DNA from: Myxococcales bacterium
Lineage (GTDB): Bacteria > Myxococcota_A > Polyangia > Polyangiales > Polyangiaceae
Length of the DNA: 53,916 bases
Direction of reading: 5' to 3'
NCBI GenBank assembly: GCA_013297655.1
Contig: JAAFHV010000020.1
Coordinates: forward strand, 4,779 to 58,694
Shown: piece after piece, positions 8,192 to 37,327 of the stretch
Position numbering within the stretch: the first letter of the stretch is position 1
Layout: every line of letters starts with the position of its first letter
The notes under the pieces: generated by a model
What the model was told of the DNA's origin: nothing
The model's database searches: none
The model's input: only the letters and a program-made list of their open reading frames with translations
Program-made: the position numbers and the translations under genes

Positions 8192-8512
8192 TCAGCTCTT
8201 CGCGGTAAGGCGCTCGCCGAACGCGCGAACCTTGTCGACGAGGTCGCTCACGATGCTGTGCTTTTCCTCGTCCGAGCGCTCGGCCGTGGAGTGGAAGTGG
8301 TTCGTCTCGCGAATGCTCGTGTCGAGCTTGTCCCACTCCGTCTTCGCTTCCATCGTGGCGAGGTGGAGCTTGAGGGCGATCTCGTCGCGCGCCTGCTCGA
8401 GCGTCTCCAAGCCCTTCTTCCAATCGAGGAGCGACTCCTCCTTCTTGGGCTCGGCGTCGGCGTTCATGGCGTTCTTCTTGGCGGTCTGGGTCGAAGGGTT
8501 GATCGTGCTCAT
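8192..8512 (-). CDS. Small charged helical protein, function unknown
   Basis: The product (106 residues from the ATG at 8512) is hydrophilic, with a central segment SLLDWKKGLETLEQARDEI followed by long stretches expected to form amphipathic helices. I do not recognise a family. The start is uncertain. A sigma-54-like element at 8525-8540 predicts transcription from about 8514, so translation would either begin leaderless at 8512 or use the internal ATG at 8467 (91 residues), which is preceded by AAGAAG. No Shine-Dalgarno precedes 8512. A clear terminator follows the gene, and coding bias is good, so I regard it as real. Confidence 0.72.
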   Translation of the reverse strand: MSTINPSTQTAKKNAMNADAEPKKEESLLDWKKGLETLEQARDEIALKLHLATMEAKTEWDKLDTSIRETNHFHSTAERSDEEKHSIVSDLVDKVRAFGERLTAKS

Positions 8513-8524
8513 ACCGAAGCGCTC

Positions 8525-8540
8525 TGCATACAACGGGCCA
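8525..8540 (-). promoter_or_regulatory. Sigma-54-like -24/-12 promoter for the small helical protein gene
   Basis: On the minus strand the sequence reads TGGCCCG-TTGT-ATGCA, a close match to TGGCACG-N4-TTGCA. The -12 C lies 14 bases before the ATG at 8512, so the transcript would start essentially at that codon, or give a 47-nt leader if the ATG at 8467 is used. Confidence 0.55.
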
Positions 8541-8682
8541 GCGACGAACTCGGCATTCCGCGCCGTTCGGTAGGCACCGCGAGCGGCGGTCTCCTCCGCG
8601 CGCGCAGGGGCACATGGGGCGAAGCACGACCGTTGTCGCAGGCTGACTCATCACGAAGCCGTCGTCGGTGAAAGGGCGCGCG

Positions 8683-8698
8683 CGGCCTCGGGTTTGCA
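8683..8698 (+). promoter_or_regulatory. Sigma-54-like -24/-12 promoter for the SOUL gene
   Basis: CGGCCTC-GGGT-TTGCA has a perfect -12 box and a GGC core at -24. Predicted start near 8709 leaves a 39-nt leader with GAGGAGG before the ATG at 8748. Confidence 0.45.
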
Positions 8699-8747
8699 CT
8701 ACCTCCCTCGCGCCCACATCGGAGCGCCAACCACCGAGGAGGTCGCC

Positions 8748-9596
8748 ATGAGACTGGAAATCGTACGATTCGACCGCGCGCACGAGCACACCGGCACCGG
8801 CGCCGAGGCGATGAGCGGGCAGAGCGCGGGCGAAGCCGATGGCCAGTGGAAGGTGTCGGCGGCGCTTCTCGCGGCGGGAGCAATAGGGCTCGGCGCGATG
8901 ACGTTCTTCGCGACGAGGACGCCGACGAGGCGCAGGCTCGCGTGGGGCATCTTGAAGGCCGCGGCAGGCTCTTCGCTCGTGCGATCGGCGGTATTCTCCG
9001 CCGGCGCGGCGCTCGCGCGGTGGCAGCTCGGACGATTCTTCACGCCTCAAGCCCACTACGAAGTCGAGGCGCGCTTCGGCGACGTGGAGGTTCGCCGGTA
9101 CCCGATGGCCGTCGTCGCCGAGACGAACGTCGTCGCTGCGACCTCCGGCGCCGCATCGAATCGAGGATTCGACCGCCTCGCGAGCTATATCCTCGGGGAG
9201 AACAGACCACTTCACCCCGAGGCGGCGGGCGATAAAGGGGAGAAGATCCCGATGACGGCGCCGGTGCTCACGCAGCGCGACGGACGGAGCTGGCTCGTGC
9301 GCTTTACCATGCCCACCGGCTTCACGCTCGCGAATCTGCCGGTGCCTACGGAGCGAGGGATTCGCTTGCGCGCCATTCCGCCTCACCGTGTCGCCGCGCT
9401 CCGTTATAGCGGGGCGTTCGACGCCGAGAAGACCCGCGCGATGCAGGCGCGCCTCCTCGACGCAGTTCGCGAGGTTGGCCTCGAGAGCATCGGCGAGCCC
9501 ATCTTCGCAGGCTACGATCCGCCTTCGACACTTCCCATGCTGCGCCGGAACGAAGCTTGGGTCGAGCTCGGACGCAGCTCCGCACGCAACGTGTGA
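8748..9596 (+). CDS. SOUL-family heme-binding protein with N-terminal membrane segment
   Basis: This 282-residue protein has a SOUL/HBP domain in its C-terminal two thirds. The signature YEVEARFGDVEVRRYP opens the domain, followed by GFDRLASYILG, EKIPMTAPVL and the FTMP strand, all characteristic of the fold that binds tetrapyrroles. The first 100 residues contain one or two hydrophobic stretches (around AALLAAGAIGLGAMTFFA and SAVFSAGAALARW), so it is probably membrane-anchored. The ATG at 8748 is preceded by GAGGAGG and is preferred over an upstream one at 8694. It is convergent with the CoA-binding gene, only 15 bp away. A tetrapyrrole-binding protein near a bacteriophytochrome operon is suggestive but may be coincidental. 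Confidence 0.88.
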   Translation: MRLEIVRFDRAHEHTGTGAEAMSGQSAGEADGQWKVSAALLAAGAIGLGAMTFFATRTPTRRRLAWGILKAAAGSSLVRSAVFSAGAALARWQLGRFFTPQAHYEVEARFGDVEVRRYPMAVVAETNVVAATSGAASNRGFDRLASYILGENRPLHPEAAGDKGEKIPMTAPVLTQRDGRSWLVRFTMPTGFTLANLPVPTERGIRLRAIPPHRVAALRYSGAFDAEKTRAMQARLLDAVREVGLESIGEPIFAGYDPPSTLPMLRRNEAWVELGRSSARNV

Positions 9597-9611
9597 GAGC
9601 CCCAGCTCGAC

Positions 9612-10037
9612 TCAAGCGAAGCGGCGCGCGTCGACCATGAGGCAGCGATCTTGAACCACGTCGATTCCGGCGTCCGAGAGTACCTTTGCGAAGCTGTCGT
9701 CACGAATGCCGAGCTGGAGCCAAACGCTCCTCGGCTTGGCGGCGAGCAGATCGTCGAGGTGGGCAACCAAATCCTTCGGCCGACGGAACACGTCGACCAT
9801 GTCGACGGGCGGATCGATGTCGCAGACCCTGCGAAACACGGGGCGCCCGAGGATTTGTTTCGCTTCGGGGTAATACACGGGGACCGGCACCACGTCGTAC
9901 CCGAGATCGAGGCAGGCTTTCGCCACGTAGAACGCGGGCTGATCGGCCGCAGCCTCCGTCTTGATACCGAGCACCGCGATGCGGCGCGTTTTGCCCAGGA
10001 GGGCGCGTATTTGCGCGTCACTTTCGAGGAGAGCCAT
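9612..10037 (-). CDS. CoA-binding protein (YccU-like)
   Basis: This 141-residue protein is a stand-alone CoA-binding Rossmann domain. It begins with the usual lead helix, then TRRIAVLGIK, the PAFYVAKACLDLGYDVVPV block, and VDMVDVFRRP, followed by the QLGIRDD segment. Such proteins bind CoA or acyl-CoA and are otherwise uncharacterised; they are often seen in stress-type gene sets. I chose the ATG at 10037 because the conserved region starts there; the frame stays open to 10142 but with unconserved residues. No sigma-54-like element was found upstream. Confidence 0.88.
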   Translation of the reverse strand: MALLESDAQIRALLGKTRRIAVLGIKTEAAADQPAFYVAKACLDLGYDVVPVPVYYPEAKQILGRPVFRRVCDIDPPVDMVDVFRRPKDLVAHLDDLLAAKPRSVWLQLGIRDDSFAKVLSDAGIDVVQDRCLMVDARRFA

Positions 10038-10170
10038 CGACGGACCGTAGCGCGAGATCTCCCTCGCGCCGAGCGTTCGGAAGAACGACCGGAGACTGCC
10101 GACCTCACGTCTCCCGCTCTGCGGCGCCGCCTGTGGCTCCACCGGTTATGGCGCGGCAAAAGAAAGGTCG

Positions 10171-10186
10171 CGGCCCGGTTCTTGCG
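10171..10186 (+). promoter_or_regulatory. Sigma-54-like -24/-12 promoter for the 83-residue gene
   Basis: CGGCCCG-GTTC-TTGCG has GG-N10-GC spacing. The -12 C is 13 bases before the ATG at 10198, so the predicted transcript begins at the start codon. Confidence 0.45.
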
Positions 10187-10197
10187 ACTCGAGGGCT

Positions 10198-10449
10198 ATG
10201 CGAAACACGATTCCGAAGATCACCGTCCGCGACGATCGCCCCTCTTTTGCTTCGCCGGAGGCAGACCCGCCGAGCATCCCCGAAGGGATACCCGTCGTCG
10301 AGCTCGACTCCTCCGAGTTGGAAGACCGTGTGTCGGTCGTGCCGGCTGATGTATACGACGCGCTCACCACGAGCGCGCGCGGCGGAGCGATCGCAGGCCC
10401 AATGGGACCCGGACCTGGGCCTGCCCCCGCGAAGCCGAGCGAAGACTGA
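10198..10449 (+). CDS. Small acidic, Pro-rich protein, function unknown
   Basis: This 83-residue protein begins MRNTIPKITVRDDRP and is rich in Pro, Asp, Glu and Ser, ending in a Gly/Pro run. It looks intrinsically disordered apart from a possible short strand-helix segment (around VVELDSSELEDRVSVVPADVYDAL). No family is recognised. There is no usable Shine-Dalgarno (GAGGG is only two bases from the ATG), but a sigma-54-like element is placed for a leaderless start. It is convergent with the bacteriophytochrome gene, and a hairpin lies in the gap. Confidence 0.6.
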   Translation: MRNTIPKITVRDDRPSFASPEADPPSIPEGIPVVELDSSELEDRVSVVPADVYDALTTSARGGAIAGPMGPGPGPAPAKPSED

Positions 10450-10473
10450 CCTCCGAGAGCGTCGCCGACGTCG

Positions 10474-10491
10474 CGGCGGTTCGGACCGCCG
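10474..10491. terminator. Hairpin between convergent genes
   Basis: CGGCGGT and ACCGCCG form a 7-bp stem with a TCGG tetraloop between the end of the 83-residue gene and the end of the phytochrome gene. No T-run follows on either strand, so it is a possible two-way terminator only. Confidence 0.5.
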
Positions 10492-10506
10492 TGACGGGCG
10501 AGCCTC

Positions 10507-13209
10507 TCAACGAGTCGCGAAGCGGGCGGCGAGGCTCGACACGACGGCGACGAGCTCGGTCGCGTCGACCGGTTTCGGCACGTGAGCCTGGAAGCCCGCC
10601 ATCAGAGCGGCGGTGCGATCGGCAGTCCGGGTGTAAGCGGTGAGCGCGACCGCGGGCGTCCTCCCGCCCCGCGCGGCGTCGCGCGTCCGCAGCTCGCGCA
10701 CGAACTGGAACCCGTCCATTTCGGGCATTCCGACGTCAGAGATGAGCACGTCGAACGCGGAGCGCGAGAGCAACGAGAGTCCGTCGACTGCGTTCTCTGC
10801 CATCGTCACCGTCGCGCCGTACGACTCGAGCACTTGGCGAAGCAGCTCGCGTGCGTCCGGCTCGTCTTCCACGATCAAGAGCCCGAGCCCCTTCAGGTGG
10901 AGGTCGTGATGGCGCGGGCTCGGCGCGTCCGTGTGAATCGGGGCCTCTGCGGCGACGGGGGTAATCCGAACCGCGGACATGGGGAGGCGAACGTGGAAGC
11001 TCGCGCCCTTTCCGATTCCCTCGCTCTTCGCGCTCACCCGACCGCCGTGGAGCTCCACGAGGCGCTTCACGAGCGTGAGCCCGAGGCCGAGTCCCTGCGA
11101 GCGCCTGTTCATGCCCGCGTCCTCCTGACGAAAGAGCTCGAACATGTGCGGCAGAAAATCGGGAGATATCCCCTGCCCGTTGTCCGACACCACGAGCTCG
11201 ATGTCGGACTCGATGCGCTGCAGGAGCACGGTGATCGAGCCATTCTTCGGCGTGAACTTGACCGCGTTGTTGAGGAGATTGGTGATGATCTGGCGAAGGC
11301 GAAGAGCGTCGCCGACGACGGGCGTGGCGCGCGTGTCCAGGATGCGCTTCAGTCGAATCTCCTTCGACTCGAGCGCGAGCTTCACCGACTCGACGGCACT
11401 CTCGACGAGCTCGACCACGTCCACCGTCTCGACCTCGAGCGAGAGCTTGCCGCTCGTCATTCGCGATACGTCGAGCAAGTCCTCGATGAGCTGCGCCTGC
11501 GCTGCCGCGTTGCGAGAAATCACCTCGATCGCGTGCGCGCGCCGGTCCGGCGGGAGCGATCCTTCGCGGAGGAGCCGCGTCCAGCCGGTGATCGCGTTGA
11601 GCGGGTTTCGCAGCTCGTGGCTCACGGTCGCGATGAACTCGTCCCGCGCGCGATCGTTCGCGACGAGGCGCTCGTTGAGCTCGCGGAGCTTCTTCGCGCG
11701 CTGACGAAGCCCTCCGACGAGGACCCGGCGAAGGCTCGACGCGGCCTCGACCTGCCAAGACTCCCAAGCGATGCTCCTGCCCTTTACCGTCTCTCGCCAG
11801 AGGGCGAAAGAACCGCGCGGGCTGAGGCGGGCTTGCTTCTCGCCGTCTGCCGGGACTACCGCTTTGCGTGGATCACCGGCCCAATCGATTACGCGCTCGG
11901 TAGGTTGGCGAAACCAAAGTAGCCACTCGCCCAGCTCGCGAGAGAGCGCGACCGCGATCATCCCGGGGAGCTCGGCCGGGGCGTCGGCCATGAGCTCGCC
12001 GAGGGCGTCGGTCGTGACGACGTCGTCGGCAGTGGAAGACGAGAGCCACGCGACGATCTCGCGAAGCTGGGACTCTCGCGGGGCGACCCCTGCAGTCCGG
12101 CTGCCCTCCGCGAGCACCACCGCAGCGCCGTCGGCTTCGGTGAGGGCCACGAACGAGGGGCCGGGGAGTGACTCGAGCATATCGGGGTTCAGCGCGAGAG
12201 AGCGCACCACCTCGGCCTCGTGGGCGACCGCCCCGCGAGCGCGCAGTGCCTCCTCGGAGCGTTCGAGCACCCGCACGTGCCACGACAGCGTGCGACCGAG
12301 ATACTCGGCCGTCTCGCGCACCGAGAACGGGACCACCCTCGGCCCGGAGTAGTGATGGCAGGCGACGAGTCCGAGGAGCTTCCCGTCGTCGACGAGCGAG
12401 ATCGACATGGACGCCTGGACGCCCATGTTCTTCATGTACTCCACATGTATCGGCGAAACGCTGCGGAGCACGCAGTGGCTCATGTCGAGCGCGGCGTTCG
12501 TCTCCGGATCGAGGGCGGGGACGAGCAGACGAGGCGTGTAATCGACGTCGCCGATGAAGCGGAGCCAATTCACGGTATAGAGCCGTCGCGCCTGGGCTGG
12601 GATATCCGAAGCTGGATAGTGCTGACCGAGGAAGGGCGCGAGGTCGTCGCGTTTGCTCTCTGCGACGACCTCGCCGTTCCAACTAGGATCGAACCTATAA
12701 ACCATGACGCGGTCGAAGCCGGTGACGGAGCGAATCTCCGCCGCTGCTACGGTGCAGAGCGCGTGTGTGGTTCGCGCAGAGGCCATTCGTACGACGCCGC
12801 TTCGAAGGCGTGGATCGAACGCGGCGGCCGCATCGATCGGCCGTTCGGTGCGCGCGGGCTCGAGCTCGGCCACAATCACGTCGACCGGAGCGCTCGGACG
12901 ATGCAGCACGGCGTCGAATGCTCTCCCCACGCGCGACGTGAGCCGGAGCGGGCAATTGTCGCGGATCGCCGGCTGGCGCGCAGCTTCGAGGAGGAGTGCA
13001 GCGGAAGCTTCGTCGAACAGATCTCCGAGAGGGTGGGAGAGCACGTCGGCGGGAGTGGTGGCGAAGTACTCACCGACATTGTCGCTCACCTGCGTCACGC
13101 GGAGCTCGGGCCCGCGCAAGGCGAAGAGCGCTCCGTGGGGCTGAATCGCCCCGGGCACGTGAATCGGCTCGTGCTCACACGTGTCTAGGCTTACGGGCTC
13201 GGTGGTCAC
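10507..13209 (-). CDS. bphP: Bacteriophytochrome hybrid histidine kinase (PAS-GAF-PHY-HisKA-HATPase-REC)
   Basis: This 900-residue protein is a red/far-red light sensor kinase. The PAS domain opens with TCEHEPIHVPGAIQPHG, in which Cys11 sits where bacteriophytochromes attach biliverdin. The GAF domain carries the PASDIP motif and FLGQHYP segment that cradle the chromophore, and a PHY domain follows. The kinase core has SHELRNPLNAI with His531 and an ATP-binding region with GQGIS and GLGLGL. A C-terminal receiver has Asp825 in SDVGMPEMDG. The GTG start at 13209 overlaps the stop codon of the upstream heme oxygenase gene by four bases (GTGA), so the chromophore-making enzyme and the apoprotein are translationally coupled. 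No separate output regulator is adjacent; phosphorelay through its own receiver is likely. Confidence 0.95.
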   Translation of the reverse strand: MTTEPVSLDTCEHEPIHVPGAIQPHGALFALRGPELRVTQVSDNVGEYFATTPADVLSHPLGDLFDEASAALLLEAARQPAIRDNCPLRLTSRVGRAFDAVLHRPSAPVDVIVAELEPARTERPIDAAAAFDPRLRSGVVRMASARTTHALCTVAAAEIRSVTGFDRVMVYRFDPSWNGEVVAESKRDDLAPFLGQHYPASDIPAQARRLYTVNWLRFIGDVDYTPRLLVPALDPETNAALDMSHCVLRSVSPIHVEYMKNMGVQASMSISLVDDGKLLGLVACHHYSGPRVVPFSVRETAEYLGRTLSWHVRVLERSEEALRARGAVAHEAEVVRSLALNPDMLESLPGPSFVALTEADGAAVVLAEGSRTAGVAPRESQLREIVAWLSSSTADDVVTTDALGELMADAPAELPGMIAVALSRELGEWLLWFRQPTERVIDWAGDPRKAVVPADGEKQARLSPRGSFALWRETVKGRSIAWESWQVEAASSLRRVLVGGLRQRAKKLRELNERLVANDRARDEFIATVSHELRNPLNAITGWTRLLREGSLPPDRRAHAIEVISRNAAAQAQLIEDLLDVSRMTSGKLSLEVETVDVVELVESAVESVKLALESKEIRLKRILDTRATPVVGDALRLRQIITNLLNNAVKFTPKNGSITVLLQRIESDIELVVSDNGQGISPDFLPHMFELFRQEDAGMNRRSQGLGLGLTLVKRLVELHGGRVSAKSEGIGKGASFHVRLPMSAVRITPVAAEAPIHTDAPSPRHHDLHLKGLGLLIVEDEPDARELLRQVLESYGATVTMAENAVDGLSLLSRSAFDVLISDVGMPEMDGFQFVRELRTRDAARGGRTPAVALTAYTRTADRTAALMAGFQAHVPKPVDATELVAVVSSLAARFATR

Positions 13210-13814
13210 GAAATTGCCCCACTGTGGCGAAACGACTCTGCGTAATCTCGAAACAGTTGCTCCGCGGCGGCGCAGGTGCGCGCGTGCTCGGCCGGGAGAG
13301 CGGCCTCTCCGAACGCCTCGAACGCCGCGAGGAACGCGCTCCAGTAGGCGCCCGTTTCCTTCCCCCTCAGTCGCAGGAACGAGGTCCCGTCGCCCATGTC
13401 GAGCCCGAGCGCGCGCTCGACCCTCGCCGCGAGGACGAGGCCACCGAGCGCGGAACCTTCGAGCACGTACGCGATGCCCCAAGCCTCCGGAGCAGGCAAC
13501 GGGGCGGGCGGGAGCTCGGCGCGGCACGAGGGCGGGACTCGGCCCATGCGCGCCAGATCACGCTCGATGCAGGCGCTACGGAGCGGTCCCACGCGGTCGG
13601 TGTCGCGAACCCGAGCGCCGACCGTCGCCACGAGCGGCTCGACGCGGCGAACGATGCGCTCGGTGCCGAGGAGGAAGGCCTCGTAGCGGGCGAACGTGAT
13701 GCTCTCGGTCGAGAGCGCCAACGCCTGGTCGAGCGCGGCGTGTGCCACCGACGTCGCTCTACGAACGTCCGAAAGGATGGACGAGCGAGCGAGGGACTGA
13801 CGAATGGGTTCCAT
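13206..13814 (-). CDS. bphO: Biliverdin-producing heme oxygenase
   Basis: This 202-residue protein should cleave heme to biliverdin, the chromophore of the phytochrome encoded immediately downstream. The N-terminal DVRRATSVAHAALD carries His25 at the position of the proximal heme ligand, and YVLEGSALGGLVL is the distal-helix motif of bacterial heme oxygenases. The length is normal for the BphO group. The stop codon overlaps the GTG start of bphP by four bases. The ATG at 13814 has no clear Shine-Dalgarno. A sigma-54-like element lies just upstream (13830-13845). The gene is divergent from a Ser/Thr kinase gene with about 260 bp between the starts. Confidence 0.92.
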   Translation of the reverse strand: MEPIRQSLARSSILSDVRRATSVAHAALDQALALSTESITFARYEAFLLGTERIVRRVEPLVATVGARVRDTDRVGPLRSACIERDLARMGRVPPSCRAELPPAPLPAPEAWGIAYVLEGSALGGLVLAARVERALGLDMGDGTSFLRLRGKETGAYWSAFLAAFEAFGEAALPAEHARTCAAAEQLFRDYAESFRHSGAIS

Positions 13815-13829
13815 CGATCGAATTTTGCT

Positions 13830-13845: not shown

Positions 13846-13938
13846 TCGCCATTCCGCCGAGCGCGGCGCGCCTTTTGCTCTTCGCGAACCGTCGCGACCC
13901 GCGGAGTGCGGATATCGTCGACTCGGAGGCGCGGCAAA

Positions 13939-19522: not shown

Positions 19523-19538
19523 TGGCACGCAAGTCGCT
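19523..19538 (+). promoter_or_regulatory. Sigma-54-like -24/-12 promoter for treX-treY
   Basis: TGGCACG-CAAG-TCGCT has a perfect -24 box and one mismatch at -12. The -12 C is 13 bases before the ATG at 19550, predicting a leaderless transcript; no Shine-Dalgarno precedes that ATG. Confidence 0.5.
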
Positions 19539-19549: not shown

Positions 19550-22500
19550 ATGACGAGCCGCGGGAGTGCGCACCCACTCGGTGCAACATGGGACGGTGAG
19601 GGGACCAACTTCGCCCTCTACTCGGAGAACGCCACGCTCGTCGAGCTCTGCCTCGTCGACTCGGAGGGCACCGAGACGCGGCACGCGATTCGCTCGCACA
19701 CCGGCTTCGTGTGGCACGTATACGTGCCGCGAGTCGGCCCCGGACAGCGCTATGGCTATCGCGTGCACGGCCCCTACGAGCCTGCGCGCGGCCTGCGCTT
19801 CAATCCGGCCATGTTGCTCGTAGACCCGTACGCGAGAGCGATGGACGGGACGGAGCGTTGGGATGCTGGCGCCTTCGCCTACACGATCGGCGATCCGAGT
19901 GAGGACTTCGCTCGCGCGGAGGGCGACCTTCGTGGCGCGCCGCTCGGAGTCGTCGTCGACTCGAGCTTCGACTGGGAAGGCGACACGCTCCCGAAGATTC
20001 CACTTCACCGCTCCGTGATCTACGAAGTGCACGTGCGCGGGCTGACGAAGCTGCACCCCGAGGTACCGGAAGAGCTGCGCGGAACTTACGCGGGAATGGC
20101 TCACCCCGCCGTAGTTCGGCACCTGAAGGAGCTCGGCATCACCGCCGTGGAGCTCATGCCGGTGCACGCTTTCGTCGACGACAAGATGCTCGTCGACCGC
20201 GGGCTGCGGAACTACTGGGGGTATTCCAGCATAGGCTTCTTCGCGCCCGACGTGAGATACCGAAGCGGCCCCGCGCTCGCGAGCGAGGTTCGAGAATTCA
20301 AACACATGGTCAAGGCGCTCCACCGCGCCGGGATCGAGGTCATTCTCGACGTGGTCTACAACCACACCGCGGAGGGCAATCACCTCGGCCCCACCTTCGC
20401 GTTCAAGGGCATCGACAACCCTACGTATTACCGCCTGGTCGAAGGCGACCCGCGCCACTACTTCGACTACACCGGGACGGGAAACACGTTGAACGTGCGC
20501 CACCCTCAGGTGCTGACACTCATCATGGATTCGCTCCGCTATTGGGCGGGCGAGATGCACGTGGATGGCTTTCGTTTCGACCTCGCGTCCGCCCTCGCGC
20601 GAAATCTCCACGAGGTCGACAAGCTGTCGAGCTTCTTCGCGCTCATCCATCAGTCGCCCGATCTTCGTGACGTGAAGATCATCGCCGAGCCGTGGGACGT
20701 CGGCGACGGAGGCTATCAAGTCGGCAACTTCCCGGTCCGATGGGCGGAGTGGAACGGACGCTTCCGCGACACGATCAGGAAGCTCTGGGCCCATGGCGAG
20801 AACACTGGCGAAGTGGGCTATCGCCTCACCGGCTCGAGCGATCTCTACGAGTCGAGCGGGCGGCGCCCCTCTGCGAGCATCAACCTCGTGACTGCCCACG
20901 ATGGCTTCACGCTCGACGATCTCGTCACCTACCAGCACAAGCACAACGAAGCGAACGGGGAGGACAACCGCGACGGCAACGACCACGAGCATAGCCAGAA
21001 CGGAGGCGTGGAGGGCCCGACCGACGACGCGGTGGTGAATGCCTTTCGGCGTCGCCAACGGCGTAATTTACTCGCCACGCTCATCCTCTCCCAGGGCACG
21101 CCACTCCTCGTCGCGGGCGACGAGATGGGCCGCACCCAGCGCGGGAACAACAACGCGTACTGTCAAGACAACGAGACGAGCTGGGTCGATTGGGACCTGG
21201 ACGACGAACGAAGGGCGCTCCTCGAGATTACGAAGCGACTCCTCCGTTTGCGTCGGGAGCACCCCGCCCTCCAGCGCGCCAAGTTCTTCCAGGGGAGGGC
21301 GATCTACGGGACGTCGCTCACCGACATCATGTGGTTCCACCCCGACGGTCGACGCTGGGAGACGGCGGAGGACGCGACCTCGGCGGCGTTCATGGTGTTC
21401 CTCGCCGGGCGCGGCATCGACGACACGGACGAGCGCGGGAGGCCCATCGTCGACGACGACTTTTTACTGGCCTTCAACGCCTCGCCGAACGAAGTCACGA
21501 TGCGATTGCCAATGCCGGGTCCCGCGCTCGAGGCATGGACTTGCCTCGTCGATACGGCGAACGACGGCGCCGAGGAGACCGTCGCCGGAGGTGCCGAGAC
21601 GACGCTCGTCGGTAGCTCGCTCAAGTTCTTCCGCGCACCGTCCCGGGTGGTGCGAACGGGCGGCGCGCGCCATTCGCTCGGCGCGACGTACCGATTGCAG
21701 CTCGGGCCTACGTTCGGCTTCGCGGCTGCGGCTTCCCTCGTTGGGTATCTGGCCGACCTCGGGGTGACCGACCTCTACGTATCTCCGGTGATGGGCGCGG
21801 CGGCGGGCAGCACCCACGGCTACGACGTGGTGGACCACCAGCGCGTCGACGCGGCCCTCGGCGGGGAAGAGGGACTCGTACGTCTATCGGACGTGCTCCG
21901 CGAGCGCGGAATGGGGCTCGTCATCGATTGGGTCCCGAACCATATGGGCATCCAAGGCGGGCAAAACCTCGCTTGGGACGACGTGCTCGAGAGCGGCCCG
22001 AGCTCCGTCCATAGTGACGCATTCGACATCGACTGGAACCCTCCGAAGGCAGACCTCAAGAACCGAGTCCTACTCCCCATCCTCAGCGAATCGTACGGTG
22101 AATCGCTCGAGAGCGGGTCGCTCCGCGTCGCGTGGGACGACGAGCGCTTCCGAGTCGTTTACGGTACTCGCAAGTTGCCACTCGGACCGAAGACGATCTT
22201 GCCCATTCTAGAGACGGCCCGCGCGCGCTGCGGGCTCGAGGACGAATCACGGGAAATGCAGGAGCTCGCGAGCATCGAGTTCTCCCTTCGGAGCCTACCT
22301 TCCGCCTCCGACACGACGCCCGAGCAGCGAAGAGAACGTGCGCGCGAGAAGGAGGTCGTCAAACGTAGGCTCGCGACCCTCGTCGAAGCGAACCCCGCGG
22401 TCCGCGCCGCGATCGACGAAGCGCTCGTCGTGCTCAACGGACGCCCGGACGACACGCGGAGCTTCGACGCGCTCGACCAGCTCTTGATGGCGCAGAGCTA

Positions 22501-24517
22501 TCGGCTCGCATTTTGGCGGGTCGCAGCAGAGGAGATCAACTACCGAAGGTTCTTCGACGTGAACGATTTGGCGGCCATACGGATGGAGAGTGAGCCCATC
22601 TTCGACGCTGCTCACGCGCTGGTCGGTCGTCTCTACGAGGAGGGTCGCTTCGAGGCCCTTCGCCTCGACCACACCGACGGGCTCTATGATCCCAGCGGCT
22701 ACTTCGAGGCTCTCCAACGCACGCTCCGCCCGGCGGCACGGAGCAGCGCCGCCGACAACCCCGACGATCGCGCGCGGCCGGTGCCGATCCTCGTCGAGAA
22801 GATCGTCGGGAGGGGCGAGGTGCTGCCGTCGTCGTGGGCGGTCGACGGAACGACGGGATACGAGCACGCCGTCGCAGTGCAGGGACTCTGGGTCGATCCG
22901 GCGGCGGAAGAGACGTTCACGCGCCTCTACCGGCGCTTCACCGGCGACGACGCGTCGTTCGAGGAGCACGTTCGCGCGAGCAAGAAGCACGTCCTCACGT
23001 ACTCGCTCTCGAGCGAGCTCAATATGCTCGCGCGGATGCTCGAGGGGATCGCTGGCAAGAACCGGCGCTGGCGCGACTTCACCCTCATCTCGCTCACGCG
23101 CGCCCTCCGCGAGACGCTCGCCGCGTTCGGTGTATACCGCACCTATATTCGCGCCGGAGAGCGCCCCTCCGCGGAGGACCGGCGGCACGTAGAAGAGGCG
23201 ATCGCCCTCGCGCGAAAGGCCGCGCCGTCGATCGCGGGCGAAGTGTTCCAATTCCTTCGCGACGCGATGCTCGTCAGCGTCGACGTTCCAGAGGAGGAGC
23301 GAAGGCAAATAGAGAGGTTCGCGCTTCGTGTACAGCAAGCGTCCGCCCCGGTCATGGCCAAGTCGGTGGAAGACACTGCGTTTTACCGGTACGCGCGGCT
23401 TTTGTCGCTCAACGAGGTCGGCGGCAGCCCGGAGATCTTCGGACGCTCGGTCGACGACCTTCACGCTCTCAACGCACTGCGCGCGCGCTGTTGGCCACTC
23501 TCGATGACCTCGCAGTCCACCCACGACACGAAGCGCGGGGAGGATGCTTCGGTACGCATCTCGGCCCTTACGGAGGTTCCCGAGGCGTTCACGCGCGCGC
23601 TCGGTCGCCTCCGGGAACGCGCGCGTCACTTCGAGACCATCGTCGACGGAAAGCGGGCGCCGAGCCCCACACTTCAGTACGCGTTCTGGCAAGCGCTCGT
23701 CGGCACTCTCCCGTTCGGATGGGACGGGCAGTCCGGTATCGCCTCCCTCGTATCACGAATGAGCGATTACCTCCTCAAGGCCGCAAAAGAGGCGAAACAA
23801 GAGACGTTGTGGACGCACCCGAACGACGCGTTCGACGCCGCGATCGGCCCGTTCGTGAAGGGCGCGATCGAGGACGGCGGGGTACGCGAAATCTTGCTCG
23901 AGCTCACCACGGCGATAGAGCCGATAGCGATTCAGAACGCGCTCGCGCAGACCACTCTCAAGATCACGAGCCCAGGGATCCCGGACACGTATCAAGGCTC
24001 GGAGACGTGGAATCAGAGCCTCGTCGACCCCGACAACCGCGCGCCCGTCGACTTCGCTTCGCTGCGGGCTCGGCTCGGCTCGCTTCGCGCACGGATCCGC
24101 GCCGCCGGCGACGATCGCACGCCTTTGGTGCGCGAGCTCGTCTCCTCGGCGAGCGACGGCACCATCAAGCTGTTCGTCACGCACCTCCTCTTGGCCCTCC
24201 GCCAGCGGGAGCGAGAGCTCTTCTTGCGGGGAGACTACGAGGCCATCGCCGGCACCGGGCAGGTGGTCGCGTTCACCCGCGGCTTCGGCGAGTCGCGCGT
24301 CGTGGTCGTCGTCCCACGCCTCGTCGCGACGCGCAGCACGCCCTTCGCGATCGGAGCCGACGCTTGGGGCGACACGTGCTTGGCGATCGGGCATCGTGGC
24401 GTGTACGAAAACGTTTTCACGGCGCGCGAGGTGCACCTCGAAGACAGCGTGAAGCTCGGGGAGCTCTTCGCGGAGTTGCCGATCGCAGTGCTGGTTCGCC
24501 GCGGACGGGCGGAGTGA
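19550..24517 (+). CDS. treX-treY: Fused glycogen debranching enzyme TreX/GlgX and malto-oligosyltrehalose synthase TreY
   Basis: This 1655-residue protein carries two GH13 enzymes in one chain. Residues 1 to about 705 are an isoamylase-type debranching enzyme beginning [19 protein letters not shown], with catalytic Asp344 in GFRFDLA, Glu380 in IIAEPWD and Asp451 in TAHDGFT. From about residue 705 the chain restarts as TreY ([16 protein letters not shown]), with Asp1040 in LRLDHTDGL, Glu1083 in LVEKIVG and Asp1326 in STHDTKR. Together they would debranch glycogen and convert chain ends to maltooligosyl-trehalose for TreZ. I see no frameshift at the junction. The ATG at 19550 is chosen because homology starts immediately after; it has no Shine-Dalgarno. 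An ATG at 19484 is possible if transcribed from treZ. Confidence 0.95.
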
Positions 24518-30259: not shown

Positions 30260-32677
30260 TCAAACCTCCGGCGGGTCCATCGCCCGCTCGAAGTGACGGT
30301 GACGGCCGATCGCCTCGATGAACGCCGGGATCGCTTCGTTCACGTCATCCTTCACGACGAGCCCAGGATCGTGGTCACCCGACCGCAGAACCGAGGGGAT
30401 CCCCGCGCGTTCCAGCAGGGCGAGCGAAGCGCCGAGCGCGAGGATCGGCTTCGCGTGGCGATACTGATCCTTCAAGAGCTCCGCGGCGTGCCCCAGGTTG
30501 GCGAGTAGCTTGATTCCCGCTTTTCCTCCAGGGAGCGCGACCGCGTCGTAGAGAACGGAAGGCGTCGTTTCCAATGTCGCTTCCACGTCGATTGGTTCTC
30601 CGATTTCGGGGGTCACTTTTCCGAGCCGGGGACCGATGAAGCGCGGGACCGCGCCCTCGGCGACGAGCGCGGCGTGGAGCGCCTTCGCCGCGTCGCCGTC
30701 GATTCCGTCCGCGACCAGGATCGCAATACGGCGCGTGGCGATTCTCTTTTCCCCCGGCTGCGAGAACACGGACAGCGCGGGCGATATCTCGATCTCGGCC
30801 GCGCGCGGGTTCTCGAGCGCGCGCGGCATCGGCGGGGGCATGTCGAGCCCGAGCTGCGCGGCGAGGGTCTCGGCGAGGCCCATGTCGACGTTCGCGAGCA
30901 TGGAGACGACCCGCTCCCGAATCGCCGGTGTCTGCACCTTGGTCAGCTCGAAGCGGAAGGCGCGCAAGATATGGTCCTTCTCGATTGGCGTTTGACTACG
31001 CCAAAAAAGCGTAGCCTGGGAGTAGTGGTCCGCGAAGCGCTCCGGATTCCCACGAACCTTGTCGCCCGTGGCGGGCTCGCGGAACGACGTGAAGCCTGCG
31101 GCACCGGCTTGAAATGGGCAGCCCCCGCCGAGCGAGTTGGGCTCGTATGCGACGCGGCCACGGTTCACCGCTTTTCGATGCATGCCGTCGCGCTGGTTGT
31201 TGTGGGTCGGCGCGATCGAAGCGTTGATGGGAATTTCGTGAAAATTCGGACCGCCGAGGCGCGTAATTTGAGTGTCGGTGTAAGAGTGGATACGTCCGGC
31301 GAGGAGGGGGTCGTTGGAGAAGTCGATCCCGGGGACCACGTGCGCGGCGCAGAACGCGACCTGTTCCGTCTCCGCAAAGAAGTTGTCCGGGTTGCGATTG
31401 AGCACGAGCCGGCCTACGGGAGTGAGCGGAACGAGCTCCTCCGGCACGAGCTTCGTCGCGTCGAGCACGTCGAATGAGAAGCGCTCGGCGTCCTCCTCCG
31501 AGAAGAGCTGGAAGCTGAGCTCCCACTCCGGAAACGCGCCCGCCTCGATTGCCTCCCACAGGTCACGGCGATGATAGTCCGGATCGGCGCCCCCGAGCTT
31601 CACCGCTTCGTCCCAATCCAAGCAGTGCGTGCCCGCGACCGGGCGCCAATGAAACTTCACGAAGGTGGAGTTGCCGTCTGCGTTCACGAGGCGGAACGTG
31701 TGCACCCCGAACCCCTGCATCATACGATAGCTACGTGGAATTCCTCGATCGGACATCGCCCACATGAGCATGTGGGTCGACTCAGGCATGAGCGACACGA
31801 AGTCCCAAAACGTGTCGTGCGCCGTCGACGCTTGCGGCATCGCGAAATGCGGCTCCGGCTTGGCGGCGTGAACGAGGTCGGGGAACTTCATCGCGTCTTG
31901 AATGAAGAAGACGGGCATGTTGTTGCCGACGAGGTCCCAGTTGCCTTCGTCGGTATAGAACTTCACCGCGAAGCCGCGCACGTCGCGGGCAGTGTCGGGC
32001 GAACCGCGCTCGCCGACGACGGTGGAGAACCGAACGAAGACGGGAGTGACCTTACCCTTTTCACCGAAGATCGACGCACGAGTGACCTCGGTCCTCGGCG
32101 CGTAGCACTCGAAGAATCCGTGTGCCCCCGAGCCCCGCGCGTGGACGATTCGCTCGGGGATTCGCTCGTGGTCGAAGTGGGTTATTTTCTCGCGGAGAAT
32201 AAAGTCTTCGAGGAGGGCAGGTCCGCGGAGACCGGCCTTGAGAGAGTGCTGATTATCAGCAACGGGCACCCCCTGGTTCGTCGTCAGCACCTGCCCGGTC
32301 CCGTCGGCGCGCGCGGCGTCGAGCGATACGCGGCCAGGGTCTTGTCCGAGGGGCGGACGCCCGCTACCGACTTTGGGTGAAGCGCTCCGTTCCGTCAGAG
32401 TGCTACCGGTGACGGCGTCGTTCGGGGGCTCCGTGGTGAAGCCGGGCTGCGGCGTCGCCGATGCAGGGCCATACTCGGTGGCCTTGTTGGGGTTGTAGGG
32501 AACGGAGCGCGCGACCGCGTCGACCCCTTCCATTTTTTCGGTCGCGGCGTTGGCCGCCGAGCCAGGAGCTGGCTCCCCGTTCGACAGTCCGGCGATCGAC
32601 TGCGCGCTAGTCGTCGCGGGCGCGACGCCCGATCTCGTGGGAGCTGCGGTTGAAGGCGATTTCTTTTTGGCGGCCAT
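30260..32677 (-). CDS. katE: Large-subunit catalase HPII
   Basis: This 805-residue protein is a large-subunit heme catalase that disproportionates H2O2. A disordered Ala/Ser/Pro-rich N-terminus of about 130 residues precedes the core. [13 protein letters not shown] carries the catalytic His179, and RIHSYTDTQ carries the proximal Tyr. After the core, a flavodoxin/DJ-1-like domain typical of HPII enzymes runs from about 675 ([14 protein letters not shown]) to the end. The ATG at 32677 is preceded by GAGAGAGAG at suitable spacing; an upstream ATG at 32794 would add Arg-rich residues and would overlap the predicted promoter. A sigma-54-like element lies 47 bp upstream. Confidence 0.96.
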
Positions 32678-32723
32678 AGACTCTCTCTCAAGGGCGCCAG
32701 AGCCGGCGCGGGCGATGTCGACA

Positions 32724-32739
32724 AGCAACTGTCGCGCCA
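32724..32739 (-). promoter_or_regulatory. Sigma-54-like -24/-12 promoter for katE
   Basis: The minus strand reads TGGCGCG-ACAG-TTGCT, one mismatch from TGGCACG-N4-TTGCT. Predicted start near 32713 gives a 36-nt leader before the ATG at 32677. Confidence 0.6.
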
Positions 32740-32819
32740 CGCTCCGAGGAAAGGACGAGCGCGCGCCGCGACGAAGCGAACGACGCTCGGCCATCCGAGG
32801 GAGACTGTTTTGCCTCAGA

Positions 32820-32831
32820 GGTCGTTCGACC
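32820..32831. promoter_or_regulatory. 12-bp palindrome upstream of katE
   Basis: GGTCG-TT-CGACC is a perfect inverted repeat about 80 bp upstream of the katE -24 box, a suitable position for an activator or repressor site. Confidence 0.35.
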
Positions 32832-32990
32832 GAGACCGAACTGCGTCCCTCGCGCGCGACCCCATCGCAAGGCCTTCGCGTCGCCGGAGCCCAGCGGCCA
32901 ATCTACGACCGTTGCTCGATCCGACGCGCTCGACCTGCGTAGCGACGGACGGCCGACTCGTGCGTCGTGGGCGCCGGCGCGAAGGGTGCG

Positions 32991-33719
32991 TTACCCGGCA
33001 ACGTTCCCACTCGGCTTTCCCCACTCCATGATCAAAAAATAGGGAGCCTTCAAGTACCGCCGCACTTTCTCTTCGGGTCCACCGTGCGGCCGCGGCTCGG
33101 CGAAATGGCAAAGCTGCAAGCCGGCGCCGAGGAGCAACTGCATGTACGTCTCGAGTGGGCGGTGCCAGTTCGTGACGCTCACGCCGCGCCAGCGCGCCTG
33201 GCTCGCGTGCTCGTCCAAGTAAGTGGCACGTCGGTCCGCGCCTCGCGGGCGCCTTCCGCCGAACACCATTCCGGCCGTGGTGAAGCCAGTGAGATTGGCA
33301 ATGAGAAGCGTGCCTCCGGGGCGGAGTACCCTCGTCATCTCCGTGAGCCCAGCTCCGAGGTCCGGGATGTCGATCAACGACAAGTAGCTCACCACGAGGT
33401 CGAACGAATCGTCTTCGATGTCGAGCCGCTCGGCGAGCCCTATTCGATAGTCTCCCGCCGGGTCGACGGTGCGAGCGCGCGCGAGGAGGGCCTCGGTCGG
33501 ATCGACGCCGACCGTGCGAATGCCGAGCGCTTGCAGCATGCGACAGAACCGCCCCTCACCACAGCCCACGTCGAGCGCGGACGCGTGAGGCCGCATTCCG
33601 ACGCGCTCGAGCATTGGGCGGTCGAGCACGAACTGGCGGCCGAAGTCGCCAAGGTCGCCCTGCTCCGCGATCCAGGCTTCGGCAGACTCGTTCCATCCAT
33701 CGGATGCGGTGGGGGCCAT
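32991..33719 (-). CDS. Class I SAM-dependent methyltransferase
   Basis: This 242-residue protein is a Rossmann-fold methyltransferase of the UbiE/Methyltransf_11 type. Motif I is ALDVGCGEGRF near residue 50, followed by VGVDPTEALLA (acidic ribose-binding residue), FDLVVSYLSLIDI, and the RVLRPGGTLLIAN strand after it. The substrate cannot be told from sequence. The ATG at 33719 lacks a clear Shine-Dalgarno. It reads toward katE but a 313-bp gap with a separate katE promoter suggests independent transcription. Confidence 0.9.
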   Translation of the reverse strand: MAPTASDGWNESAEAWIAEQGDLGDFGRQFVLDRPMLERVGMRPHASALDVGCGEGRFCRMLQALGIRTVGVDPTEALLARARTVDPAGDYRIGLAERLDIEDDSFDLVVSYLSLIDIPDLGAGLTEMTRVLRPGGTLLIANLTGFTTAGMVFGGRRPRGADRRATYLDEHASQARWRGVSVTNWHRPLETYMQLLLGAGLQLCHFAEPRPHGGPEEKVRRYLKAPYFLIMEWGKPSGNVAG

Positions 33720-34193
33720 GGGTGAGGAGAGCTCGAGGAGGAGAGATAGGACGGCCGCGACCGGCCTTCGTGCCGTGTACCACGTTTGCCCGCCGTTCGG
33801 GTCGGCGCTCGAGGCGCCGCCGGCATCGTGAGCGCCGCCTCCCTTTTGGTAGGCGCCAGAAAGTACAGCTCGCTATCGCAGAATTCGACAGGTCGCGTCC
33901 GCCGACCGGCCAGCCTGCTTGCGGGCGATCTTGCGACATGTCCCGCGGGGCTCCGCGATCACTCCCGCCTGTTCCAGAGACGTCCGCACCGGGCGACAGA
34001 CGAAAACAGCGGATCCACGTTACGGGCAAGGAGCGGGCTCCCGCGCGCGAGCAAGACCGAGGGAGGCACTCTCGGCGCTGCGGACACACCACGCCGCGCG
34101 CGGCCCCGCGATTGCATATCGCACGGCATCGGTACGTGCCTATTGCACGCGTGCCGCACCGCGCGCAACCCGCGCAATCGAAGGCCATATCCC
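33720..34193. other. 474-bp intergenic region upstream of the DUF4142 gene
   Basis: No gene is supported. The right end holds a sigma-54-like element at 34101 and the leader of the DUF4142 gene. Confidence 0.65.
34101..34116 (+). promoter_or_regulatory. Sigma-54-like -24/-12 promoter for the DUF4142 gene
   Basis: CGGCCCC-GCGA-TTGCA has a perfect -12 box and a GGC core at -24. Predicted start near 34127 gives a 67-nt leader with GAAGG ahead of the ATG at 34194. Confidence 0.4.
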
Positions 34194-34952
34194 ATGCGCA
34201 TTTTCACCTCACTATCCATTCTTGCCATTGGCCTGTCGGTCGCGGGTTGCGGCGACAACCATGGCGCAAACGACGCCACCGGCCAGTCGGCGTCCCCGCA
34301 GGGCGGCCAAAGCACGCAGGGAGGCCAGAGCTCGGGGGGCGGCGGTCCGTTCCACGGCGCCAGCGACACCACTCCCGAGCACACCGGGACGCGCGATGGT
34401 GGGTCCGGCCCCGGCTCCAGCCTGGGCGCCGATAGCGGGGCGAGCATGACATCGACCTCCCCGGCGCCAGCCTCGGAGCCCCTCACCGACGGGCAGATCC
34501 TCGAAGTGGTTCGTACGGCGAGCACCGTCGAGATCGAACAGGCGAAAATCGCGCAGTCGAAGGCAAGAACGGCGACGGTGAAGGCGTTCGCCGCGATGAT
34601 GGTGAAAGACCATGGCGCCGCGAACGCCAAGACCGAAGCGCTCGCCAAGAAAGGCTCTCACGAGGCGAAACCGAGCACCCTCAGCACGACCCTCGCTTTG
34701 GACGCGAAGCAGGCCACCTCCGAAATGTCGTCACTCACGGGAGGCGCTTTCGACAGGGCCTACGTCGATGCGCAGGTCAAAGAGCACCAAGCCGTGCTCG
34801 ACGCGATCGAGACCAAGCTCGGACCCGCCGCCGAGGCTCCAGAGGTCAAAACCCTCCTCGATTCGGTTCGCAGCAGGGTCGCACATCACCTGACCGAGGC
34901 CAAGTCGATGCAGGCGAAGCTCTCGAAGGCGACGACCACGTCGACGCGGTAG
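34194..34952 (+). CDS. DUF4142 lipoprotein
   Basis: This 252-residue protein has a lipoprotein signal (LSVAGC, Cys19) and a Gly/Ser/Gln-rich linker to about residue 95. A DUF4142 ferritin-like helical domain follows, opening LTDGQILEVVRTASTVEIEQAKIAQ with FAAMMVKDHGAANAK and later DRAYVDAQVKEHQAVLDAIE. The two conserved His-containing segments (KDH, KEH) fit the family, which is widespread and often stress-induced but of unknown activity. It would sit in the periplasm or on the outer membrane. Confidence 0.92.
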   Translation: MRIFTSLSILAIGLSVAGCGDNHGANDATGQSASPQGGQSTQGGQSSGGGGPFHGASDTTPEHTGTRDGGSGPGSSLGADSGASMTSTSPAPASEPLTDGQILEVVRTASTVEIEQAKIAQSKARTATVKAFAAMMVKDHGAANAKTEALAKKGSHEAKPSTLSTTLALDAKQATSEMSSLTGGAFDRAYVDAQVKEHQAVLDAIETKLGPAAEAPEVKTLLDSVRSRVAHHLTEAKSMQAKLSKATTTSTR

Positions 34953-35283
34953 CGAGGGCATGCCAACGGTGGCCCGACCCGGTACTTCGGAAGAGACTCT
35001 CCGATGAAGCGTCCGGCGCAGCGCGCCCCTTCCTGTTCTGTTCGTGCGTCGAAGAATGCACAATACATCAACGGCGAGGTCCTGGGCGTCGCGGGGGGAA
35101 CGCGCGTGAGACAGGCCGACCGCCCCTCGTGCCGAAGTGAGCTGCCCTCCCGCGTGCGCGGCAACGAGCACTCACGCGAGCGACCCTGCCGCGACCTCGC
35201 CACCCGCAATGGCGTTTCGCGTTCCCCACCAACCCGCGGCAGTACCCCAGAAGCTACCGCGCGCGCGAAATCACGGAGGCATC
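34953..35283. other. 331-bp region between the DUF4142 and DUF6328 genes
   Basis: No gene or clear sigma-54-like element is seen. A good GGAGG lies at its right end, before the TTG at 35284. Frames here are Arg/Ser-rich and not convincing. Confidence 0.6.
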
Positions 35284-35784
35284 TTGTCCGACCCACACGA
35301 AGCCGTAAGAGAGACGGTCGCCGAAGACGTCGAGACGACTCTCGTCGAAGGGCGGCTCATACTACCTGGTGTGCAGACGTTGTTCGGGTTTCAGCTCTCG
35401 GTCCTCTACACGACGACCTTCCAAGAGAAGCTATCGTCGCAAGACCAAGCGTTCCACGTCGCGTCGCTTGCGCTCGTCGCGGTAGCGATCGCGTTGATGG
35501 TGTTCCCTGCGGCGTACCACCGCCAGGTGACGCCGGGAGTCGTGTCCCGCAACTTCGCGCGCCTCGTGAATCGGGCGATGCAACGTGCGCTCGGACTTTT
35601 GGCCCTCGCGATGACGCTCACGATGTACGTCATCATCGACGTGGTGTTTCGAACGACCGTCGCTTCGGCGATTGGCGCCCTCGCGACCTTCGCGGTCTTC
35701 GTCGGGCTTTGGTTCGTCGTGCCGCGCCGCGCGCGGACCCGCCGCACCCACCAAGAGGTCGTCGCGGAGGGCTCGCAAGCGTAG
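35284..35784 (+). CDS. DUF6328 family four-helix membrane protein
   Basis: This 166-residue protein has the family pattern: a short charged N-terminus, RLILPGVQTLFGFQLSVLY helix, then SSQDQAFHVASLALVAVAIALMVFPAAYHR and two further hydrophobic helices before a basic tail. The role is unknown. I chose the TTG at 35284 because GGAGG (35275-35279) precedes it and the conserved part begins about 20 residues later; an ATG at 35208 gives extra unconserved residues. The spacing to the Shine-Dalgarno is short (4 bases), so the start is not certain. Confidence 0.8.
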   Translation: MSDPHEAVRETVAEDVETTLVEGRLILPGVQTLFGFQLSVLYTTTFQEKLSSQDQAFHVASLALVAVAIALMVFPAAYHRQVTPGVVSRNFARLVNRAMQRALGLLALAMTLTMYVIIDVVFRTTVASAIGALATFAVFVGLWFVVPRRARTRRTHQEVVAEGSQA

Positions 35785-35839
35785 AGCGCGAGCGCCGCTG
35801 CGCGCATCGCGCCCGTTCACGGCGTTCGGGCTGCCCTCG

Positions 35840-37300
35840 TCAGCGCTTCATGACGAGCTGCACCGCCGCGAGGCACATCTCGTCGAGGGTGCCTTCGCCG
35901 AGCCGAATTTCGGACGGCGAGCGCCTCCCCTGCGCGACGAGGCCCCTCTTGAGCTGCACGTTCGCGAGGCTGTTGTCGTAGGTGCACCGCACCTCGAGCG
36001 AGTCCCCCGCGCCCACGCTCGGAAGCGACTCCAACGGCGCGTCGTACACGTACATCCGTTGCCAGTCGAAGGCCCAGCTCGGCTCTTGAAGCAGGCACTC
36101 TTCTCTCGGCTCGCCGGCGAGCACCGTGCCTCGCTTCAACGTAAGCTTTTGGTCGACCCCGGCGAGGTGCATATGCGCACCGACCCCCAGAATCCGCATT
36201 CGCGGAAGAGGGAGCCCGGCGAGCGAGGACGGCAACGTAAAAACCATCGTTTCCGTGTGGCGCGGCGCGTTCACGGGAATGGCAAACACCGGACCGGTCG
36301 GCGGGTCCGACGGTCCGCCGAGGAGCCCTATGCCCGCCGTAGCCGCATGCCGAAAATTGCCTATCAGGCGCGGGACCATCACCCAAGCGGGAGCCTCGTC
36401 GGACAGCTCCATTCGGAACGTGGTCCGATCGGGCACCCTCGTCGCGTTGGCGTGCGGGTGGTAGTGTACCTGAAGGACGAGCTTCGTTCCCGCGTCGACC
36501 GGGAGTGCCACCCCTGGCGGAAGGGTCGAAGGCACCCCGCCCGGGGCCCAAGCCGCGACGAGGGTGGCGCCGGCGGTGTTCGGCCCCCCCGGGCAATCGT
36601 ACGCCACGTCGTGGGGAGCCTTCGCGCCGGGAGGGATGGCAAAGGCGATCGCGTGATGAACGATACTTCGATTGCCGGGCACGAAATCGCTCCCCGTCAT
36701 GTAACGAGCGCGATCGAGCTTCGGGTCGAGCACGAAGCAGCGCACGATGTCGTCGCGCGCACCAATGGGGAACACGAAGCCGTCTCGCGGGGTGAGCGCG
36801 ACCGTCTCCCCGAGGCGCGCTCCGGCGACGGGCTTCTGCGGCGGCGGCGGGGCATCCCCCTCTTTTGCGCCTCCACGGACCCAAGCATCGACTGTGGCGA
36901 TCTCGTCGTTCGATAGGCGCTCGTCGTTACGCCAGCCGAAACGAGGCGTGCACTCGTTCGTCTCGCGCGCACCCCAGGGGGGCATTCGGCGTGTTCGAGT
37001 CTCCTCGGCGATGGCCGACGCCTCGTCACGAACCTCGGCGAACGTGGTGAGCGCGAACGGGGCAATTCCGCCTCGCACGTGGCACCTCTGACAGTGTGCT
37101 TCGAGGATCGGACGAACGTCCTGGCTATAGGTTACTTCGCGCGGGCGGGCTGCGCTCGCGTCCAACGCAGCAACAGCGGCGCTCGCAACGCGCTCGCGAA
37201 CTGCGCTCTCGGAGGGTGTTTTTCGCGAGCAACCGACGGCGGCCACGGCGACGACAGCCCCGAAGATCAGGGACGAGGCACGTGGGGACGGTATGGCCAT
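35840..37300 (-). CDS. Cytochrome c / copper type II monooxygenase-like lipoprotein
   Basis: This 486-residue protein has a lipobox (VAAVGC, Cys24), then a c-type heme site C70-Q-R-C73-H74 in a short cytochrome domain (TYSQDVRPILEAHCQRCH) with a later MPPW motif that often supplies the Met ligand. The remaining 300 residues resemble the copper-binding core of ascorbate-dependent type II monooxygenases: HHAIAFA, VHYHPHANA and GAHMHLAG are the likely copper ligand segments, with paired cysteines. It should be periplasmic and redox-active, with unknown substrate. The ATG at 37300 starts the signal peptide and has no Shine-Dalgarno; a sigma-54-like element predicts a leaderless transcript. Confidence 0.85.
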   Translation of the reverse strand: MAIPSPRASSLIFGAVVAVAAVGCSRKTPSESAVRERVASAAVAALDASAARPREVTYSQDVRPILEAHCQRCHVRGGIAPFALTTFAEVRDEASAIAEETRTRRMPPWGARETNECTPRFGWRNDERLSNDEIATVDAWVRGGAKEGDAPPPPQKPVAGARLGETVALTPRDGFVFPIGARDDIVRCFVLDPKLDRARYMTGSDFVPGNRSIVHHAIAFAIPPGAKAPHDVAYDCPGGPNTAGATLVAAWAPGGVPSTLPPGVALPVDAGTKLVLQVHYHPHANATRVPDRTTFRMELSDEAPAWVMVPRLIGNFRHAATAGIGLLGGPSDPPTGPVFAIPVNAPRHTETMVFTLPSSLAGLPLPRMRILGVGAHMHLAGVDQKLTLKRGTVLAGEPREECLLQEPSWAFDWQRMYVYDAPLESLPSVGAGDSLEVRCTYDNSLANVQLKRGLVAQGRRSPSEIRLGEGTLDEMCLAAVQLVMKR

Positions 37301-37311
37301 GTAGCACTGGT

Positions 37312-37327
37312 CGCAAACCAAGTGCCA
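37312..37327 (-). promoter_or_regulatory. Sigma-54-like -24/-12 promoter for the cytochrome/copper lipoprotein gene
   Basis: The minus strand reads TGGCACT-TGGT-TTGCG, a very close match. The -12 C is 13 bases before the ATG at 37300, predicting transcription from the start codon itself. Confidence 0.55.

Follow-up and report, generated by a model that had tools for sequence, protein, structure and literature searches.

Sigma-54-like promoter elements set 13 to 15 bases before start codons point to leaderless transcripts in Polyangia

A stretch of 53,916 nucleotides from a Myxococcales bacterium of the class Polyangia (assembly GCA_013297655.1, contig JAAFHV010000020.1, positions 4,779 to 58,694), hereafter the window, carries stress and storage genes (a GlgX-TreY fusion, a catalase, DUF4142 and DUF1328 proteins, and a phytochrome kinase) together with one sigma-54 activator. 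The source assembly comprises 9.9 Mb in 546 contigs and yields one rpoN match (PF04552, E value 1.5e-63). In sigma-54 promoter numbering, GG stands at -24 and GC at -12 (PMC4842269). An initial annotation of the window proposed that such an element directly precedes the start codon of four genes and that their transcripts are translated without a leader. Here, d is the distance from the C at -12 to the first base of the start codon, elements were scored with a weight matrix for the sigma-54 consensus, and Shine-Dalgarno (SD) strength is a pairing energy in kcal/mol. The four elements and genes are, in window positions:

19523..19538, + strand: sigma-54-like -24/-12 element TGGCACGCAAGTCGCT, score 14.6; C at -12 at 19537, d = 13 to ATG 19550
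19550..24517, + strand: GlgX-TreY fusion of 1655 amino acids, predicted leaderless; SD -1.5
37312..37327, - strand: sigma-54-like element TGGCACTTGGTTTGCG, score 13.0; C at -12 at 37313, d = 13 to ATG 37300
35840..37300, - strand: lipoprotein with copper mono-oxygenase-like domains (Cu2_monooxygen, E value 6e-7), predicted leaderless; SD +0.4
8525..8540, - strand: sigma-54-like element TGGCCCGTTGTATGCA, score 13.2; C at -12 at 8526, d = 14 to ATG 8512
8192..8512, - strand: member of a small protein family (106 amino acids), plausibly leaderless; ATG 8467 is a second possible start
10171..10186, + strand: weak sigma-54-like sequence CGGCCCGGTTCTTGCG, score 7.5 (background level), d = 13 to ATG 10198
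10198..10449, + strand: open reading frame (ORF) of 83 amino acids without a family match; leaderless claim not supported

The geometry described in the initial annotation is exact, with the C at -12 lying 14, 13, 13 and 13 bases before ATG 8512 (-), 10198 (+), 19550 (+) and 37300 (-), respectively. By the numbering in PMC4842269, transcription would start 12 bases past this C, so that a d of 13-14 would leave a leader of 1-2 nucleotides. That all four genes have a sigma-54-like element but no convincing SD was found to be correct for three of them: elements close to the consensus TGGCAC-N5-TTGCW are present at 8512, 19550 and 37300 (scores of 13.0-14.6), where SD energies are -2.1, -1.5 and +0.4. 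The exception is 10198, where the site is weak (CGGCCC-N5-TTGCG) and a moderate SD-like match (-5.3) is present. In the genome sample outside the window described below, a site scoring 7-11 lies at d = 13/14 before one of 826 called ATG genes versus 0.75 expected, making 10198 indistinguishable from chance. The promoter scan at the candidate leaderless genes covered sigma-54-like elements, and the region where a Pribnow-like box would lie (TANNNT about 12 bases upstream) is occupied at these genes by the sigma-54-like element. The start at 19550 is supported by a full-length match to the GlgX model (residues 5-695 to positions 2-687 of TIGR02100) and by an orthologue (L202) with d = 13, and that at 37300 by a lipoprotein-type signal peptide with a lipobox-like VGC that begins at this ATG. 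The start of the 8512 gene is not fixed by homology, since 46 residues precede an LKLHL-like motif when read from ATG 8512 (31 from ATG 8467) as compared to 22-33 in the homologues for which a single start was read; the second ATG has no SD (-1.1). As predicted leaderless genes, 19550 and 37300 are firm and 8512 is plausible. In the single ORF 19550-24517, a debranching enzyme of the GlgX type is fused to a synthase of the TreY type.

The short spacing extends to sequence that played no part in forming the idea. A sample of approximately 1.83 Mb of the same genome outside the window was examined (1520 genes called with a simple codon model, window included). Of the 826 called ATG genes, 13 have a site scoring above 11 at d = 13/14, versus an average of 0.25 over four other pairs of distances; the corresponding counts are 8 versus 0.25 above a score of 13 and 14 versus 1.0 above 7. 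Viewed from the sites, an ATG is present at d = 13/14 in 12 of 32 sites scoring above 14 (mean of 0.42 per other distance) and in 7 of 57 scoring 12-14 (mean of 0.56). Across the whole genome, 24 of the 56 listed matches to TGGCAC-N6-TGC-N(4-34)-ATG have d = 13/14, compared with 3.6 under a flat distribution; the 56 include a few nested matches and two from the window, one of which is the false start at 47724 discussed below. A narrower pattern was found 26 times at d = 13-14 and never at d = 20-21. The tight spacing claimed earlier is thus beyond chance. The contrary view, that loose elements are common and that four were picked by eye, could draw on the background score of 10198 and on the loose pattern TGGC-N7-TTGC, which is rarer in the genome than its reverse (243 versus 394), indicating that most loose matches are not selected. 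A peak in unseen sequence and among the comM orthologues described below is not expected from chance. As an account of the pattern, chance is highly improbable: at the level of the whole genome it is excluded, and it is left to 10198 only. The element as such is not over-represented by comparison with a reversed matrix (58 forward hits above 13 versus 135 reversed), a null that was dropped because it is probably rich in hits through codon bias.

Features of the encoded proteins bear on whether these ATGs are used. Leaderless candidates in the sample (n = 20; score above 11, d = 13/14, ATG start, window excluded) were compared with leadered sigma-54 genes (n = 14; d = 25-150). By a crude home-made rule, signal-peptide-like N-termini were found in 15 of the 20 candidates, in 4 of the 14 leadered genes and in 259 of the 829 ATG genes called in the sample. 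The contrast between candidates and called genes (p = 9e-5) may be inflated by wrong start calls among the latter. A strict lipobox rule was satisfied by 4 of 20 candidates versus 80 of 829 called genes. Since a downstream start would destroy these signal peptides, the ATGs at d = 13/14 are likely true starts. Median SD energy is -2.9 in the leaderless candidates versus -6.1 in the leadered genes (p = 0.010). The initial annotation's association of a short spacing with a weak SD is therefore upheld, here and in the two protein families below, as a statistical and not an absolute relationship. A C immediately precedes the start codon in 15 of the 20 candidates and in 24 of 28 leaderless comM loci versus 50% of called ATG genes, which fits initiation on the A of AUG and proves nothing. 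Separately, called ATG genes of the sample show raised T at -7 (0.23) and raised A at -11 (0.27), and these positions may reflect sigma-70-type leaderless genes as well.

The most extensive comparison was provided by comM/yifB, whose product matches TIGR00368 and whose gene has d = 14 in the source genome. A total of 50 loci were obtained from 50 of 59 genomes of the same family or order, the source included; the other nine either were not fetched or gave no match or a partial or weak one. The start codon lies at the homologous Met in 37 of the 50 loci, 26 with a site scoring above 9 at d = 13-16 and 11 without one. The other 13 start elsewhere, with a site 13-17 bases from an in-frame start by manual count (in L257, L276 and L277 the counted start is one of several in frame), bringing to 39 of 50 the loci in which a site precedes a start codon by 13-17 bases. 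Seven of these 13 start exactly 16 codons further upstream and still have d = 13-17, indicating that promoter and start codon moved together. In other orders of the class, five loci were fetched and three could be read, two of these with d = 14. The 15 loci fetched from outside the class comprise 10 with the homologous start, four with no start codon there and one that could not be aligned; of the 10, nine show both a site at d = 24-101 (weak in two, at 9.2 and 9.9) and an SD of -5 or better, and one has no site. SD energies differ between the 28 leaderless and nine leadered comM loci (p = 5e-5). The leadered sites outside the class (loci L295-L309) suggest that sigma-54 control of comM/yifB may be old in the phylum.

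These data also bear on the possibility that the sigma-54 promoters are real and that translation begins at downstream codons, leaving ordinary leaders. Such an arrangement is true for the DUF1328 gene of the window and possible for 8512, given its second ATG at 8467. As a general account it is improbable: it would truncate the signal peptides and the conserved N-terminus of ComM, and comM loci with a longer N-terminus nonetheless keep d = 13-17 to their own start.

The 8512 family, matched at 15 loci in 14 of the 59 genomes, contains both layouts. A site scoring above 11 is present in 12 loci and missing in L229, L237 and L238. SD energies are -2.1, -2.8 and +0.4 in the three loci at d = 14 (the window gene, L226 and L236) and -6.6 to -11.3 in the nine at d = 23-64, such that SD separates fully by layout (one-sided p = 0.0045, to be taken with caution as L231 and L233 are near-identical); without the window gene, the two groups (2 versus 9) are still separated. 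The leaderless starts of L226 and L236 are the firmest in the family because their N-terminal length is usual for it.

Among relatives, matches at d = 13-14 exceeded those at d = 20-21 in 17 genomes of the family (104 versus 23), 18 of the order (103 versus 30) and 12 of the class (41 versus 16). In 187 genomes of the phylum outside the class, the counts were 415 versus 256, with more matches at 13-14 in 98 genomes and fewer in 50; these are not used as evidence because they are inflated by a coding stretch. This conserved stretch, beginning like TGGCACATCGA.TGCTC, resembles the element and in many genomes places an ATG at d = 13 (e.g., G054:C219:25550-25579). No peak was found in 18 genomes from loci labelled as other phyla or unclassified bacteria, where 15 of 140 matches were at 13/14 (14 expected if flat), 5 of them the conserved coding stretch. 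Within the sampled genomes, the layout looks specific to this lineage.

Other sigma-54-like elements in the window precede genes with longer leaders:

37392..37407, + strand: element TGGCACACGCGTTGCT of leadered ORF 37450-37653, score 18.3, d = 44, SD -7.5
47322..47337, - strand: element of leadered ORF 46799-47281, score 16.7, d = 42, SD -6.4
47737..47752, - strand: element of the DUF1328 gene 47515-47679, score 14.4, d = 59 to ATG 47679
32724..32739, - strand: element of the catalase gene katE 30260-32677, score 14.1, d = 48, SD -4.5
47905..49314, + strand: sigma-54 activator with response regulator, AAA+ and Fis-type helix-turn-helix domains (Sigma54_activat, E value 3e-70)

An SD is present, as the initial annotation had it, at the genes starting at 37450, 38437, 47281 and 47679 (DUF1328), with energies of -6.4 to -10.3, and is indeed weak at katE (-4.5) and DUF4142 (-2.6). 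A fifth leaderless gene, at ATG 47724 (d = 14), was considered and rejected as the start of the DUF1328 gene, because ATG 47679 has AGGAGG (SD -10.3) and opens the DUF1328 domain. Strong sites are clustered in the window, which contains 9 of the 58 sites scoring above 13 in the 1.885-Mb sample (1.44 expected); they lie at 8525-47752, around the stress and storage genes and near the activator, a candidate regulator of the nearby promoters. Two sites stand back to back between divergent genes, at 37312-37327 (-) and 37392-37407 (+), one gene being predicted leaderless and the other having an SD. Elsewhere, two strong sites on the + strand (L116:18215 and L116:18446) are separated by 231 bases and followed by similar sequence. 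No start codon of a called gene is close to them, and they possibly mark small RNA genes; Rfam at gathering thresholds gave no match in L116 or the window.

Several observations weigh against leaderless translation as a general account. The peak fades below a score of 12 and is absent below about 11. The leaderless genes do not differ significantly in SD from all called genes (median of -3.8; p = 0.087), nor do the leadered ones (p = 0.097), and an SD-like match of -5 or better is found in 6 of the 20 leaderless sample genes and 8 of the 28 leaderless comM loci; the comM loci L275 and L277, at d = 14 and 17, have SD energies of -9.4 and -8.4. The comM contrast coincides with phylogeny. Among 27 other loci of the 37300 gene, sites are present only in L006 and L009, at 32 and 34, and the layout is found in 1 of 29 other GlgX loci (L202). 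Pattern counts in relatives include the coding stretch falling at d = 13, unsubtracted. Lastly, the ATG at d = 14 ahead of DUF1328 proves to be a false start.

Leaderless translation of sigma-54 transcripts is nevertheless the reading that survives, on the strength of the spacing peak in the unseen genome, the fit of start codons to signal peptides and homology, comM conservation, and the occurrence of both layouts in two protein families. Very probably, these genes have sigma-54 promoters in which 13-15 bases separate the -24/-12 element from the start codon, and their mRNAs are leaderless. Transcription would begin on the A of AUG or 1-3 bases upstream of it, a position derived from sigma-54 promoter numbering, and ribosomes would then have to initiate on leaderless mRNA; genes of the same kind with the element further upstream would have an ordinary leader and SD. 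Dependence on sigma-54 and an activator is likewise predicted from DNA. The elements could instead bind another factor, or sigma-54 polymerase unproductively, with mRNAs starting further upstream, and it is a point in favor of this that transcription starts were deduced from DNA. It is distinctly improbable: the sequence matches the sigma-54 consensus, rpoN and at least one activator are encoded in the genome, and a spacing to the start codon kept so closely at 13-15 bases would suit a leaderless promoter and not a binding site. Sigma-54-dependent leaderless transcription as a conserved promoter class in Polyangia is thus the best reading of these patterns. A tentative extension, which we regard as possible though doubtful, is that the Polyangia sigma-54 regulon is split into leadered and leaderless branches, that leaders were lost while the promoter was kept (as in comM), that phase with the start codon is under selection, and that one signal switches both transcription and translation mode, activators then driving mRNAs of the leaderless route that encode lipoproteins for export, enzymes of storage-sugar metabolism and an ATPase of the DNA-uptake type.

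If leaderless translation of these transcripts is confirmed, this lineage would be an example of tightly switched transcription coupled to SD-free translation. Start-codon prediction in this group should then allow for the sigma-54 signal, and comM with and without a leader would be a natural pair in which to study leader loss.

The putative promoters resemble known sigma-54 (RpoN) promoters in having the same -24/-12 element (GG/GC; PMC4842269), with rpoN and an activator present in the genome, and differ in the placement of the element 13-15 bases before the start codon. One sigma-54 survey binned promoter distances by 100 nucleotides (PMC3162934), and the term "leaderless" is missing from its main text and from that of a second survey (PMC12316311). 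A full-text literature search, exclusive of subscription papers and supplements, returned no paper recognized as treating leaderless sigma-54 transcripts. The predicted genes are also like sigma-70-type leaderless genes, where a -10 box lies by the start codon, in that a promoter element is directly upstream and the SD is weak or absent. A genome-wide survey that sought sigma-70-like boxes, and reasoned that this would miss few leaderless genes, includes delta-proteobacteria among the groups with such genes (PMC3160421). That survey, as described, scanned Pribnow-like signals only, whereas the type proposed here would be an activator-dependent, sigma-54 one. A further parallel is with the rhizobia Sinorhizobium and Bradyrhizobium, whose mapped transcription starts reveal leaderless mRNAs and sigma-54 promoters in the same genomes (PMC3616915; PMC4842269). 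Isolated leaderless sigma-54 cases are possible in Sinorhizobium. The leaderless motif reported for Bradyrhizobium is an extended -10 box (PMC4842269), in contrast to the sigma-54-like element found ahead of the start codons in Polyangia.

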